Below, piece after piece: positions 2,417 to 15,564 of a DNA stretch of 20,893 nucleotides. Under the pieces are notes generated by a model that did not search any database, was not told the DNA's origin, and was given only the letters and a program-made list of their open reading frames with translations. A program made the position numbers and the translations under genes. Location of the stretch: the NCBI GenBank assembly GCA_026985515.1, contig JALSQH010000011.1:1-20893 (forward strand), given 5' to 3'. Origin of the DNA: a bacterium. GTDB taxonomy: Bacteria; JALSQH01. Within the stretch, counting starts at the first letter, position 1, and the number at the start of each line of letters is the position of its first letter.

Positions 2417-3892
2417 ATGTTCAGGGGTAGCTTTAAGATAAAAAGGATATATTTTCTTATCCTGTTGTTAGGACTGATTTTCTCTTCCTGTCATAATAAC
2501 TCTACAGAACCTAAAGGGGGAAGTCGTCCGCCATTAATTTTTATTGAGGGTATTGGTAATATTGTTGTTTCTCCTCTAAGGGATGGATTGTCACTGATAG
2601 CTATAAGAGCGAACAGATTCAAGTATAGTTCCTACCCTCCAATTCCTCCAATTGAAAGTGCAGAGTTGATAAATTACCGTGTTGAATCTTCTCAATTATG
2701 GGTTGAAAAGAGTCAACCTTTATATCCCTCTGCTTTAACTGATGGTTTTGAATTTTTCGATAGTCTGGAAATTTATCCTGTGGATGGAACAACTAACTCT
2801 TTTCTTTTAGGAGCTCGATTTATAACAGGGGAAACTGTGTCACATGAGACTTTTTTTCTGAATGAAAATGGTAAATTTAAGCAGGTAAAAGGAGGAATTA
2901 CTAACATTATTTTCAAAATAAGTAGTGGATATTATTTTTCCATTGTTTCAAATTTATATTGGGCTCCACTTGTAAGATATGCTTTTTTTGGAGAAGATGA
3001 AAAAAATTATAATCTCAGAATCTCACCTGATAGATTACCCGGATTCTTTGAAGCGTATCCTTACACTTCAGCGTATCATCCCAGAATTTTTCTGAAAAAC
3101 AGAGACATTGATCTTTCCAGACTTTTTATAGTTGAAGGGGGAGAAATAATTGGTGATACCAATCTGATTTATTTTCAGGGTTGTGATGCTTTTGATCTTG
3201 ATCTTCTTCGCAGTTTTCCCTCCCGGGCGGAAGATATTTCTTCTTACCTTTTTATTGGGAATGTTAAAGTTAATGGTTATTCAATGGATGTAACTGATGT
3301 TAGATATATTCGGTTTAATGATCCGGCAACTTTTGTCACAATTATGGGTGTAGAATATTTGAGAAATAAAGGGTTAGTGGTTTATGCGAGAGAGTTTCCT
3401 AAAGATATAACTACTCAGCAGGAAATCACAAAGATAAAAGACAAGTTGATGATACTGGATCCGGAAAATTTAAAGATTATTAGTGAGAAAGAAATCTTAT
3501 GGAGTGAGGTAAATTCATCGGAAGCTAATTTTAATTTTCCTTTACTTGTTGAATATGATGAAAATCCCCCCAAACTTATTGCTTTTGATAAGAGAAATCA
3601 AAGAATTGTGTCTGTTATGGGCAGTAGAGTTTTAATTATAGATTTGGGTTCCTTCCGGGTTGAAACATTGGAATTGCCGTCTCCCTGGATTTGTGACATA
3701 AGTGGTACCGGTGTGTGGGTAGATGCTACTGGACACATATGGGTAATTGCCCGTGATGTAAATTCGGGTAAAGTAGACAAAAAACGATTTAAACCAGGGG
3801 TTATCCTATTTGCAAAATTGAGGTTTGGAGTATTGAGTATAAATATAGAGGAGGGTAAATATTCTGTGAGAGTTGTGGAGGAGCTAAAATAA
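2417..3892 (+). CDS. Putative lipoprotein, tandem paralog of the preceding gene
   Basis: The N terminus has KIKR, a hydrophobic run and IFSSC with C25 as the probable lipid-attachment Cys. Phe at -3 is not ideal for a lipobox. A weak AAAGG lies eight bases before the ATG, and the gap to the upstream gene is 38 bases, so the two are probably cotranscribed. Shared blocks with the upstream lipoprotein include NIVVSPL, YHPRIFLK, LSRLFIVEGG, YFQG, MDVTDVRYI (starting at about residue 290 in both), FVTIMG, VVYAREFPKD, LPSPWICD and WVIARDVNSGKV. The two therefore arose by tandem duplication. The function is unknown; the C-terminal repeats of short beta-strand-like segments hint at a propeller or solenoid fold. 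Next downstream is a 461-base gap with the first repeat element. Confidence 0.8.
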   Translation: MFRGSFKIKRIYFLILLLGLIFSSCHNNSTEPKGGSRPPLIFIEGIGNIVVSPLRDGLSLIAIRANRFKYSSYPPIPPIESAELINYRVESSQLWVEKSQPLYPSALTDGFEFFDSLEIYPVDGTTNSFLLGARFITGETVSHETFFLNENGKFKQVKGGITNIIFKISSGYYFSIVSNLYWAPLVRYAFFGEDEKNYNLRISPDRLPGFFEAYPYTSAYHPRIFLKNRDIDLSRLFIVEGGEIIGDTNLIYFQGCDAFDLDLLRSFPSRAEDISSYLFIGNVKVNGYSMDVTDVRYIRFNDPATFVTIMGVEYLRNKGLVVYAREFPKDITTQQEITKIKDKLMILDPENLKIISEKEILWSEVNSSEANFNFPLLVEYDENPPKLIAFDKRNQRIVSVMGSRVLIIDLGSFRVETLELPSPWICDISGTGVWVDATGHIWVIARDVNSGKVDKKRFKPGVILFAKLRFGVLSINIEEGKYSVRVVEELK

Positions 3893-4020: not shown

Positions 4021-4312
4021 TACCCAAAATCTCAATTAAGAGATTTTGGGTAACTAAAATTTATTATTTTAGAAAATATACCCTATATCATTCCGTCATC
4101 CTTTGGATGACGGAATGTGAGATTCTGAAATTTATAAAAAAATACCCTATATTCTGCCGTTACCCTTTAGGTAACGGAAGATGATATGCAGAAATTTATT
4201 ATTTAAAAAAATATTCTTCCGTCATCCTTTGGATGGCGGAAGATGAGATGCTGATTTATAGGCAAAAAAAGGCAGACGCTATATTAACCTGATTTCTATT
4301 TGAGGATTTCGG
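4021..4312 (+). repeat. Dispersed multi-hairpin repeat, copy 1 (four hairpins plus conserved tail)
   Basis: The copy opens with a 13-bp perfect hairpin (4021-4033 with 4040-4052, loop AATTAA). It continues with three related hairpins at 4089-4117 (13 bp, TTT loop), 4157-4177 (CCGTTACC, loop CTTTA, GGTAACGG) and 4216-4242 (12 bp with one G-U pair). Their centres are about 62-67 bases apart and the linkers are similar (AAATTTATTATTT, ATACCCTATATTCTGCCG). A tail from about 4243 to 4312 (GATGCTGATTTATAGGC through GATTTCTATTTGAGGATTTC) matches tails of two other copies in this window. No protein-coding signal is seen. A REP-, BIME- or MITE-like element, or a structured RNA, are the main options. 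Confidence 0.8.
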
Positions 4313-4353: not shown

Positions 4354-6663
4354 ATGATAGTCAGGTTCTTAATTTTAAGTTTTTTGCTAATTCCCTTTTC
4401 TCTCTTCTCCGCTGCAAACTCTGTGGAAACAATGTTCGGTGCAACCAACATATATGGTATAGCTGGAGAGGGGGGTTTAACAGCTGCATTTTCGAAAGAG
4501 GGAGAACTTACAGTATTAAGATGGCCCAATCCCAGTTTCTATGAACTGCTAAACTACATCACTTCAAACTTTTCCGATGCCAGAGAGATGCCCCATCTTG
4601 GAGCATCATCATACATGGGAGGTTTTGGAGGAGTTATTTTTTACCACAGGGGAAAACGATATGTTTCTGAACTTCGTAACAGTTCAGATTGGAGAGTGGA
4701 AACAACCTATCTCTCACCAGATGCAGAAATCTTACAGCACAAATTCAACAATCTTGCTTTTCCACTGAAAGTTATTCAGATTGATCTGGTGGATCCGGAA
4801 ACTGATGTTCTTGCAGTAGCATTCAAAGCTGATTATTCCAGTGAAATTACTGGAGTGAAATTTTTCTTCTACCTTGATCCGGCTATCTCCCTGAAGAGAA
4901 GAGAATTCATCCCAACCTATGCGTATGAAGATGACCCGGATAAGGGTTTCCTCCTCTTTTACATGAAAAACCACTCCATTTTCGTTGACTTTACTCCACA
5001 TGATCCTGATTCCTCAAAAAATCTCATTACCCGCTGGAAAAGCATCTTTAACCCCAACACCACTTCTTACGCAGATGTTGAAGAGATCCTGGGAAAGGGA
5101 CTTTACCTCGTTGTTGGAAGCAACTTCCCCATATCTTCATTCCAATGTGGAAGGGATGATGTTTTCAGCGGTAACAATGAAAGTGCATATCAGGATCTCA
5201 AGGATGGAAACTTAAATAACAATTATGTTTCCACATTTCATGAAAATCTGGCATTTACAGGTAATGCTCAGAAAGATGTATGGAAGGCAGTATTTATAAC
5301 AGCAGGATTCACTGTGACAGATGCAGTAAATCGTTTGAACATGCTGAGAAGATCCCAGTTTGAAGATGTTATTGAAAGGACACAGGAATGGTGGGAAGAT
5401 TTCCTGTCAAGGGCAAATATACCTTCAGATATACCCGTTGCAGAAAGAAATTTTATTAAAAGGACCATACAGACCATCAGGACCTCAATGGACAGGAAAA
5501 GTGGAGCCATAGTTGCCTCGGTAGCCACACAGCCTCCATACTTCCTGGACTGGCCAAGAGATGGTTCTTTCATAAACTACTTTCTCGACACCGCTGGTTA
5601 TCATGATCTCGTTCTTCAACATAATTTATTCTATTTGAAAATGCAGAGGAAGAAAGATGGTGAGAAAGCCCTCACTCCCAACAGTCCCGCGGGAACATTT
5701 GCAATGAACTATTATCCTGACGGAATGGTTGGCGGACCCATTGATTTTGAAATTGATCAGACAGGTCTGATTCTCTGGACCTGGTGCACCCATGGCAAAT
5801 TTATCAAGGACCCTGTTGAACAGAGAGAATATTATGAAACCTTTTATCCGGGTATCAAACTTGCAGCCGAAGCACTGATGAAGTGTTACGATCAGAAAAC
5901 AGGACTCCAGTGTATAACAAATGAGGATGATAACCCCATGCCCACCCAGGGACTTCAGGGAGCCATCACAGAGTATCTTGGATTGAAAAGTGCCTCTGAA
6001 GTTGCCTATTACCTCGGAGATGAAGAAAGTGCAAGGAGATGGTCAGAGAGAGCAGATGAACTGAGAGAAGCGATCTACAGGAACTTTTATGACATTAAGC
6101 TTGGTAGATTCAATGGCAATTTTGACTACTATGGAAACAGCGGATGGGCGATCTGGCCTGTGAAACTCTGGGATAAAAATGACCCAAGATGGAGAGGAAT
6201 TGTGGATTTTCTCTTTGAAACATTGAGAAATAACATCCTCTTTCCATCACCGGAGGGTTCAGCTTATGATGCAAAGGTATCTCTCGGGCTGGATTTCATT
6301 CTTCCCGCATACGATAAAAGAAGAACTGTCCTGGGAACGATAATAGAGAATCTCTCCACAAAACTTTCCACAGAAACTCTTCATGTGGGTGAAGCTTATA
6401 TGCCAGTTTACAACGATCACACCTTCAAATGGCAAAATGTTACTTCAATTCCTCATGTGTGGGAGGCTTCCCTCATTTCACTATCTGTAATTGCATATTA
6501 TCATCCTGAAATTCTCAACCTTCCTGCATTGAGTAAATATAAAGAGGAAACAGAGGGCTGCAGCAGTCTCAACCCGGGGAGAGAAAGAAATATTTCTTCA
6601 CTTTTTCTTCTGCTTCTGATAATTCCCATATGGAGGTGGTACAGATGGCGAAAATCGGGATAA
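4354..6663 (+). CDS. Exported glycoside hydrolase family 15 (glucoamylase/glucodextranase-like)
   Basis: Residues 1-20 form a signal peptide ending LFSA. Residues about 25-330 fit the beta-sandwich N domain found in bacterial GH15 enzymes. The catalytic (alpha/alpha)6 domain spans about 365-720, with WPRDGSF at 400-406, DQTGLILWTWCTHG, and HVGEAY with E680 in the place of the usual catalytic base. The usual acid-bearing WEE motif is not obvious; E524 in NEDD is a possible substitute. GH15 enzymes release glucose from alpha-glucans such as starch or dextran. The C terminus (G735-C736-SS, a hydrophobic FLLLLIIPI run, then WRWYRWRKSG) is a Cys-type tripartite sorting signal, so the enzyme is probably held at the cell envelope. 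There is no Shine-Dalgarno before 4354. The 3' end overlaps the phosphodiesterase gene by 19 bases. Confidence 0.85.
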   Translation: MIVRFLILSFLLIPFSLFSAANSVETMFGATNIYGIAGEGGLTAAFSKEGELTVLRWPNPSFYELLNYITSNFSDAREMPHLGASSYMGGFGGVIFYHRGKRYVSELRNSSDWRVETTYLSPDAEILQHKFNNLAFPLKVIQIDLVDPETDVLAVAFKADYSSEITGVKFFFYLDPAISLKRREFIPTYAYEDDPDKGFLLFYMKNHSIFVDFTPHDPDSSKNLITRWKSIFNPNTTSYADVEEILGKGLYLVVGSNFPISSFQCGRDDVFSGNNESAYQDLKDGNLNNNYVSTFHENLAFTGNAQKDVWKAVFITAGFTVTDAVNRLNMLRRSQFEDVIERTQEWWEDFLSRANIPSDIPVAERNFIKRTIQTIRTSMDRKSGAIVASVATQPPYFLDWPRDGSFINYFLDTAGYHDLVLQHNLFYLKMQRKKDGEKALTPNSPAGTFAMNYYPDGMVGGPIDFEIDQTGLILWTWCTHGKFIKDPVEQREYYETFYPGIKLAAEALMKCYDQKTGLQCITNEDDNPMPTQGLQGAITEYLGLKSASEVAYYLGDEESARRWSERADELREAIYRNFYDIKLGRFNGNFDYYGNSGWAIWPVKLWDKNDPRWRGIVDFLFETLRNNILFPSPEGSAYDAKVSLGLDFILPAYDKRRTVLGTIIENLSTKLSTETLHVGEAYMPVYNDHTFKWQNVTSIPHVWEASLISLSVIAYYHPEILNLPALSKYKEETEGCSSLNPGRERNISSLFLLLLIIPIWRWYRWRKSG

Positions 6664-8026: not shown

Positions 8027-8051
8027 GTCAAGAGGGCTCAACCCTCCTGAC
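8027..8051. terminator. Hairpin between convergent genes, possible bidirectional terminator
   Basis: GTCAAGAGGG (8027-8036) pairs with CCCTCCTGAC (8042-8051) with a single A-C mismatch and a CTCAA loop. It begins directly after the recombinase stop and contains the stop codon of the opposing regulator gene. No T-run follows on either strand, so intrinsic termination is not certain. Confidence 0.45.
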
Positions 8052-8691
8052 TCTTCACATACTCCCCGATCTCTTTTAGAAGAGCCGCCGGGGATTTCAC
8101 GGGATAGGCAATTTCTCTTACAACCTCCGCTGCGTCTCTCCCCTTTATCTTCACTCCTGCAACTCTATCAGCAATATCTTCAGGAGAATTGAGAGGATAC
8201 TTAACACCCCTGATCTTCTTCAAAATTGCATAAGCCCATGGTATATCACACAAAGCTGCTGTTTCTTCACTCATTCCCCGGCAGAATTCAAGGAGTGTCT
8301 GGGCGTCGTTACCCTCTTTTACCATCTTATATGCAAGCTTGGCAATACCACCAGCTGTGTGGACCTTGAGTTCCTTTTTCTCCTCTTCTGCCAATTCATC
8401 AAAGTGTTCCACCTTGTAAATAGCCATATTGGGATCAGCCCTGAGGATATTTCTGACTGTGTTTCTCGTGAGCCCCACAATCTGGGCTATTTCATCCTCA
8501 GTTCTCAAATACTCCTCCCTCAGAACAACTGCAAAGGCTGCCCTTGCAAGAGAGGGAAGCCATGTGAGGGTTCTGAATTCAGCAAGTTTTTTCAAACCTC
8601 CAAGAAGATCTATGGATTTGAAAAAAACCCTGTTCACCAGGTGTTCATAATTTTCATCTGCTCCCATCTGTACACCATCAACTATGATCAT
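8038..8691 (-). CDS. Near_KaiC-type regulatory protein (HTH-containing partner of KaiC-like ATPase)
   Basis: The 217-residue protein has a helix-turn-helix-like segment at about 64-84 (TEDEIAQIVGLTRNTVRNIL). It is preceded by a helical region with LARAAFAVVLREEYL and followed by a helical C-terminal half. It lies 15 bases downstream of the KaiC-like gene, with GGAGGGG before its ATG. As I recall, TIGR03879 ('near_KaiC_dom') describes proteins encoded next to KaiC-like ATPases in archaea and thermophilic bacteria, and this protein fits that description by context and by its HTH. It is probably a DNA-binding or signalling partner of the ATPase. Assignment to the exact family is from memory and not tested. 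It is convergent with the recombinase gene, separated only by a hairpin. Confidence 0.7.
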   Translation of the reverse strand: MIIVDGVQMGADENYEHLVNRVFFKSIDLLGGLKKLAEFRTLTWLPSLARAAFAVVLREEYLRTEDEIAQIVGLTRNTVRNILRADPNMAIYKVEHFDELAEEEKKELKVHTAGGIAKLAYKMVKEGNDAQTLLEFCRGMSEETAALCDIPWAYAILKKIRGVKYPLNSPEDIADRVAGVKIKGRDAAEVVREIAYPVKSPAALLKEIGEYVKSQEG

Positions 8692-8706
8692 CTCTTTCCC
8701 CTCCTT

Positions 8707-9624
8707 TTATTTTTTTGAAATTGGTTCACCAATCTTCACCAGACCCGTTTCAGTTATTTCAAGGAATCTTGTTTTTGTGTCATGTCCCGACATCCTGCAA
8801 CCATCTATCCTGAACAATCTAACTATTTCACCCACCTCCTTTCCATATGTCTTTGCCTTGTAAGCAGAATCTATCAGTTCCTTGGCAAGGACCATTGAGC
8901 CATCCACAATGTGACTCACCGCATATCCGCCAGCTGCCTCTGCAGTCAATTCTTCATGACCGCTCCTCTTCTGTGAAATGAAAAGGGCAGTCTGATACCA
9001 CTTTTTCATGAAGTTAAACAACCTTCTGACCACCGCCCTTGCCATCATTTCTTTATTTTCATATAATCCCGTAACTGAATCTATCACCGTGAACTTCACA
9101 TTGTAATTCTTTATTACATAGGCGAGTGTTGAGAGCAGATCGGGTAAATTCTCCCTCAAAACACTATTGGAAGCTGCATCTATGAGAATGATATTATCCT
9201 GAATTTTATCAAAATCTATCCCTAAAGCAGCTGCTCTCAATTTCAGAGAAGCAATCACAAAGTTGGCAGGTGACTCAACTGTTATGAAAGCAACCTTCTT
9301 TCCTTTATTTGCCTGAAATACTGTGAACTGTTCCACCATAAGTGATTTGCCAGTATCAGAGACACCTGTTAAATTGAAAACAGAATAGGCAGGGATGCCT
9401 CCAAGAGGTTTTTTAACCACCTTTTTACCCTTAACTTCAACGGTAAAAAAAAGTTCATCCAGCCCCTCGATACCCGTCTCCACTCCATACACCTCAGGGG
9501 CCTTTTTCAGCGCCTCGCTTCCTATTAGAATACTCTCCTCAATTACTCTGCCCTTCCCCGACAATTCCTTCTTTTCCTCTTCAAAATTGTTCTGATGTTC
9601 CTTTTCAAATTCCTTTTTTTCCAT
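8707..9624 (-). CDS. KaiC-like RecA-superfamily ATPase
   Basis: The 305-residue single-domain ATPase has Walker A GVSDTGKS (87-94), a Glu after beta-2 (VESP, about 117), and Walker B FTVIDS (178-183). A later ISQKRSGHEE is typical of RecA/KaiC folds. The N-terminal 45 residues are a highly charged, probably coiled extension. It resembles single-domain KaiC-like proteins of thermophiles (the thermo_KaiC families) and is neither RadA nor DnaB: there is no zinc finger or primase-type domain. GGAGG precedes the ATG and a candidate promoter lies at 9644-9671. It is cotranscribed with the HTH partner downstream, so the pair may couple ATP-dependent assembly to transcription. No evidence of a circadian role. 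Confidence 0.8.
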   Translation of the reverse strand: MEKKEFEKEHQNNFEEEKKELSGKGRVIEESILIGSEALKKAPEVYGVETGIEGLDELFFTVEVKGKKVVKKPLGGIPAYSVFNLTGVSDTGKSLMVEQFTVFQANKGKKVAFITVESPANFVIASLKLRAAALGIDFDKIQDNIILIDAASNSVLRENLPDLLSTLAYVIKNYNVKFTVIDSVTGLYENKEMMARAVVRRLFNFMKKWYQTALFISQKRSGHEELTAEAAGGYAVSHIVDGSMVLAKELIDSAYKAKTYGKEVGEIVRLFRIDGCRMSGHDTKTRFLEITETGLVKIGEPISKK

Positions 9625-9740: not shown

Positions 9741-9920
9741 GGGATGTAGAAGAAATTTATTATAAACCCTTCCGCACTTTCATAAAGATGTAACTAAAAA
9801 TTTATAAAACATAATCTTACATCATGTCGTTATCCTGATGGTAACGGAAGTTATGATGCTGATATACAGGTAAAAAAGCCAAACGGTGGACTAAGCAGAT
9901 TTATACTTGAAGATTTAGGC
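9741..9920 (+). repeat. Dispersed multi-hairpin repeat, copy 3 (degenerate)
   Basis: AGAAATTTATTATAAA followed by a decayed hairpin at about 9768-9787 matches the unit linker of copy 1. TAACTAAAAATTTAT at 9791 matches the sequence just after the first hairpin of copies 1 and 2. A hairpin at 9828-9846 (CGTTATC, loop CTGAT, GGTAACG, one T-G pair) and a tail (GATGCTGATATACAGGTAAAA through ACTTGAAGATTT) complete the match. The AT-rich first hairpin is not recognisable. Orientation is the same as in the other copies. Confidence 0.65.
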
Positions 9921-15397: not shown

Positions 15398-15564
15398 CCC
15401 CAAAATCTCAATTAAGAGATTTTGGGTGACTAAAAATTTATTATTTTTAAAAAAATACCTTATATTCTGCCGTCACCCTTTAGGTGACGGCCGTGATGTG
15501 CTGATTTACATGGATAAAAAGACAGATGATGGATCAACCAGATTTCTATTTGGGAATTTTGGGT
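15398..15564 (+). repeat. Dispersed multi-hairpin repeat, copy 2 (two hairpins plus conserved tail)
   Basis: The first hairpin (15399-15409 with 15416-15426, loop AATTAA) is identical to copy 1 over its arms and loop. A second hairpin at 15469-15491 (GCCGTCACC, loop CTTTA, GGTGACGGC) corresponds to the second-type hairpins of copy 1. The tail (GATGTGCTGATTTACATGG through GATTTCTATTTGGGAATTTT) matches the other two copies. The right end GGAATTTTGGGT is an imperfect inverted copy of the left end CCCAAAATCTC, so the element has terminal-inverted-repeat-like ends. No clear target-site duplication was seen. Confidence 0.8.

Follow-up and report, generated by a model that had tools for sequence, protein, structure and literature searches.

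An old and probably inactive repeat family of MITE-like, modular design in a bacterium almost without sequenced relatives

The window analysed here, a 20,893-nucleotide stretch of bacterial DNA read on the forward strand, carries copies of a dispersed repeat that we consider likely to be an ancient, short and non-autonomous MITE-like element with the modules A-B(n)-C, one that has probably ceased to move. The repeat family is old and probably inactive, new by itself but of a known kind, and it brings the design of the BOX and BrickBuilt elements, in which fixed ends enclose an inner module of variable copy number, to a lineage that has almost no sequenced relatives. This suggests that such a design arises repeatedly. 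With 18 one-unit copies, a single three-unit copy and short direct repeats at the unit borders, the family also offers a simple case of the gain and loss of a palindromic module, and it carries a warning for annotation: in genomes of this type, a small hairpin array may be no new RNA but an old mobile repeat.

Copy 1 of the element (A1-B3-C1, 290 bp) lies on the + strand at 4023..4312, its bounds being placed where identity drops to near chance outside. The four hairpins described in the earlier note at 4021-4312 are all present, and the three GC-rich ones are regularly spaced, with unit starts 64 and 62 bases apart. Folding is far beyond that of shuffled sequence, with z = -8.9 for the region as a whole (reached by 0 of 100 shuffles) and z from -5.4 to -9.7 for each hairpin taken singly. 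The first hairpin is AT-rich and is the end of the element, a distinct module and not a member of the array. This module A (4023..4050, +) consists of the 5′ terminal repeat CCCAAAATCTCAATTA and its own inverted copy and reads CCCAAAATCTC-AATTAA-GAGATTTTGGG; it forms 11 pairs, or the 13 given earlier when the neighbouring TA/TA is counted, and 92.9% of its pairs are kept across copies. The B units follow, all on the + strand, with hairpins H1 at 4089..4117 (13 pairs, all intact), H2 at 4153..4181 (11 of 13 pairs) and H3 at 4215..4243 (13 pairs, one G-T among them). The conserved tail reported behind the hairpins is real and runs to 4312: it forms module C (4244..4312, +), which ends in the 3′ terminal inverted repeat, the reverse complement of which is CCGAAATCCTCAAATA.

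The source genome is a draft of 2.36 Mb in 268 contigs, 97.6% complete, and copy counts rest on sequence searches, namely BLAST with copies 1 and 3 as queries and a covariance model trained on 15 copies. Between them they returned 19 near-complete copies and one fragment (contig C73), so that the covariance-model check proposed earlier as a means of telling a repeat family from a local duplication speaks for a dispersed repeat of about 20 genomic copies. The family consensus is 163 bp long and has three parts, the hairpin at the end, a single GC hairpin unit and a conserved tail; in order, it runs from the left repeat and its inverted copy (hairpin A) over a spacer to the GC hairpin, for which the consensus is CTGCCGTCACCCAAAGGGTGACGGCAG, and from there over another spacer to the tail. 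Mean identity among copies is only 74%, from which it follows that the family is old. One GC hairpin is found in 18 of the 19 near-complete copies and three in copy 1 only; the earlier suggestion that the unit itself multiplies, drawn from the lower number of hairpins in other copies, holds for this one locus, where the event is old, and not for the family in general. Elsewhere in the window, copy 3 (15399..15562, +) is a full A1-B1-C1 element near the family consensus, exactly where a copy had been placed at 15398-15564. Copy 2 (9781..9919, +) retains one GC hairpin and the tail behind a decayed 5′ hairpin; the copy assigned to 9741-9920 is real, but its start is better placed at about 9781, as supported by both the model and BLAST, its 5′ part being decayed. 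A lone degenerate module A hairpin without the remainder of the element was also seen at C65:6411-6450 (L146).

Relatives of the element were sought in other genomes. The only same-family genome (G001) is distant, and neither it nor 39 more distant genomes, forty in all, gave a significant match; in G001, moreover, the probe gene for an empty-site comparison has no clear orthologue. The exact module A pattern was absent from the 84,980 species genomes scanned, a collection that may leave out records near the source genome, and from viral contigs, an exact pattern being one that diverged relatives would escape in either search.

The ends of the element are well defined, since pairwise identity is near chance in the flanks (0.23-0.37, against 0.45-0.93 inside the element) and changes abruptly, at CCC on the left and after CGG on the right. 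The termini read CCCAAAATCTC.../CCGAAATCCTC... and carry terminal inverted repeats (CCCAAAATCTCAATTA versus CCGAAATCCTCAAATA) that are imperfect, matching at 12 of 16 positions, a level reached by 0.07% of shuffles. The flanks are suggestive of target-site duplications of 5-6 bp: identity between them is in excess at 5 bp (p 0.003) and 6 bp (p 0.013), both values being uncorrected for the ten lengths tried, and candidate duplications such as TTTGA, GAATAA and CTAAAY are clear in 3-4 of 17 copies; even in the least diverged copies, duplications are not clear. The element is thus short, non-coding, dispersed, multi-copy and sharp-ended, with terminal inverted repeats, as expected of a MITE. Because the duplications are only nominal and no autonomous partner was found, we call it MITE-like and not a MITE; among the readings that the earlier note left open, this is the best supported, on the strength of its dispersal, sharp ends and inverted repeats.

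The 97.6% complete draft yielded no transposase whose ends match those of the element, and searches of the genome for PF01609, PF01797 and PF13701 returned no match. An IS4/IS5-type source was rejected on the absence of PF01609, and an IS1380-type source on that of PF13701. The genome's only rve-type transposase match (C106:1711-2871, L127) abuts an element copy with its 3′ end, and a direct repeat, GTGGTTGCATTATT, flanks the transposase copy on this contig; as a source the transposase was rejected, since its own ends differ. A pair of inward-facing end-like sites on C168, 2.5 kb apart, was likewise set aside, as it encloses MazG-domain, zinc-ribbon and unknown genes and no recognised transposase. 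Unpaired element ends are in no clear excess in the genome. The copies may have been spread by a transposase that acted in trans and once recognised the element ends, and whose source would since have been lost or missed, possibly because it is diverged or unassembled.

The earlier note knew of no named element with this form, but two known elements share its architecture. BOX of Streptococcus pneumoniae is a composite interspersed repeat in which end modules, boxA and boxC, surround a variable number of tandem inner boxB modules, boxB folding largely on its own, and which has inverted-repeat ends and a history of old proliferation with slow current movement (PMC3049150). The present family follows the same plan, with A-B1-C in 18 copies and A-B3-C in one. 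It differs in belonging to another lineage, in sharing, as far as tested, no sequence with BOX, and in having one inner unit in 18 of 19 copies and about 20 copies in total; moreover, a similarity of the BOX ends to ISSpn2 has been proposed (PMC3049150), whereas the present element is without an identified source IS. The BrickBuilt MITE of Porphyromonas gingivalis likewise combines a leader, inner tandem repeats and a tail with inverted-repeat ends, and has 19 genome copies, all intergenic, and a narrow host range (PMC4596501). Its inner repeat is, in contrast to the 62-67 nt unit described here, which holds a hairpin, a 23-nt minisatellite without spacers, present in 1 to ~23 units (PMC4596501). 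Judged by architecture, the element would work like BOX and BrickBuilt, its likeness to BOX being one of design.

The motif ATTTAT bounds the units of copy 1, at element positions 36, 107, 171 and 231, and in single-unit copies occurs as a pair 62-69 apart where both survive. Short direct repeats around a palindromic unit favour its gain or loss by slippage or unequal recombination. Those around the hairpin unit could have let either process add or remove whole units, and the number of units in copy 1 was probably changed at this one locus by slippage at the flanking ATTTAT. The copy-1 junctions read CTGAAATTTAT, the crossover not lying exactly within ATTTAT. As the units of copy 1 are just 66-78% identical, their multiplication either dates far back or made use of different copies, and a gain by slippage or unequal recombination would have taken place in copy 1 long ago. 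The other option is that the three-unit array was assembled from different family copies, through recombination or nesting, and not by in-place tandem duplication. This bears only on how the array came about and can be combined with the mobile-element reading; we view it as possible, if on the doubtful side. The copy-1 units are indeed about as different as units across copies (mean identity 63%, 95th percentile 78%), the unit nearest to H2 is that of the window copy at 15399 (L002) and not H1 or H3, and the pair variants of H1/H3 and of H2 are found in other copies too. Against this, the H1 and H3 hairpins are identical at 24 of 25 positions, and a TTT loop and a GGA 3′ stem end are common to H1, H2 and H3; the tree of hairpin units neither shows nor rejects a single clade of the copy-1 units (p-AU 0.45).

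Pairing in the GC hairpin is above chance at family level and decays in single copies, a pattern that speaks against a structured RNA on which the host depends. Across 20 GC hairpins, standard pairs fill 82.7% of pair cells (76.9% in shuffles), and covariation reaches 0.270 against 0.182 in shuffles (0 of 500); it is weaker when copy 1 is left out (0.214 versus 0.158, 5 of 500). The shuffles ignore relatedness, which makes the comparison less than strict. Copies differing from the consensus at 4-6 positions often show broken pairs. H1 and H3 are among the hairpins furthest from it, with 7-8 differences (three in the loop), yet keep 13 of 13 pairs, while the compensated variants of copy 1 recur in other copies (pair 4/26 in L007 and L019, 11/19 in L009, 9/21 in L029) and are for that reason probably old family variants rather than the product of local repair. 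Compensated base changes of this type would mean that the palindrome was maintained in the source lineage before single copies decayed, either through selection for mobility, in which the hairpin DNA played a part, or by way of template-switch repair of palindromes.

The alternative left open earlier, that copies are transcribed and that the host keeps them as structured RNAs or cis-regulatory elements, with hairpins acting as attenuator, stabiliser or ncRNA, could account for this excess of pairing and covariation and its weaker persistence without copy 1, for the full pairing of H1 and H3, and for the position of several copies 13-76 bases upstream of a start codon. It is nevertheless a weak reading, which we regard as unlikely. 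Rfam gave 0 matches in the window at gathering score, RNAalifold of the whole element retains module A only, with no compensated pair, and module A is without covariation; pairs are broken in many copies, down to 5 of 9 core pairs, and template switching is likewise known to produce compensated base changes (PMC8794818). The genomic context points the same way. Every copy is essentially intergenic by approximate gene calls, with a few reaching into the last codons of a gene, and copies occur on either strand relative to the flanking genes, without a fixed orientation or side. These genes are ordinary and of many kinds; most are arranged in tandem, while about three settings are convergent and two divergent. 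Element edges lie a median of 5 bases from stop codons as opposed to 60 from start codons (nominal p 0.02), distances that derive from approximate gene calls and were partly judged by hand. No intrinsic terminator or terminator-like tail was found in the element copies, and promoter-like sites are no more frequent in them than in shuffles; the lack of a fixed context, of a terminator and of a promoter excess argues against a dedicated leader RNA. Retention of the GC hairpin as a folded DNA/RNA module, with copy 1 serving as a host-retained three-hairpin regulatory array before the gene at 4354, would explain why the copy-1 hairpins are far from the consensus but almost fully paired, and is a proposal to which we attach little credence.

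The weakest of the readings raised earlier, and one that is mostly refuted, makes the array a cluster of REP/BIME-type palindromes that owe their movement to a RAYT-like Y1 transposase; we hold it to be very improbable. REPs of the GTAG and CGTC superfamilies are palindromes of 20-40 bp that carry GTAG or CGTC, unpaired, at one of their ends, and the GTAG type is linked to RAYT transposases (PMC3733652). Small GC-rich palindromes in intergenic regions, often downstream of genes, are common to REPs (PMC3733652) and the present family, whose GC palindromes have a CGTC-containing stem and often lie near stop codons. Here, however, CGTC lies within the stem and is not an unpaired tag, the palindrome occurs inside a 163-bp element, none having been found without the rest of it, all units have the same orientation, the inverted-repeat ends are foreign to REPs, and Y1_Tnp (PF01797), detected in 5 control genomes, is absent from this one. 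Integron attC and CRISPR readings were set aside on form alone, the units being non-identical and most copies single-unit.

Other features of the surroundings of the MITE-like element were recorded. In the window, the genes at 873-2378 and 2417-3892 are tandem paralogues without a Pfam match, with stretches that are 77% identical at the DNA level. The gene at 8038-9624 encodes a KaiC-like ATPase (TIGR03878) and is accompanied by a gene with a near-KaiC domain. The ATPase has its closest relatives (<=80% identity) scattered over Aquificota, Thermodesulfobacteria and other thermophiles, a distribution that suggests lateral transfer. A second short repeat (GATTAAAATTTATTATCTG...) stands beside two element copies, at C106:1485-1554 and C212:181-253. 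Finally, a repeated gene start (MKNFKFQLVNSLPSFLP...) contains a (TTCC)n array of a length that differs per copy, with ATTC as the repeat in C205; its loci are C106:3095-3475 (L127), C211:7703-7897 (L145), C65:6032-6398 (L146) and C205:4679-4740 (L147). In C106 and C65, the frame of the start codon closes soon past the array while another frame is open, and from their sequence these gene starts look as if a secreted protein were subject to slipped-strand phase variation.
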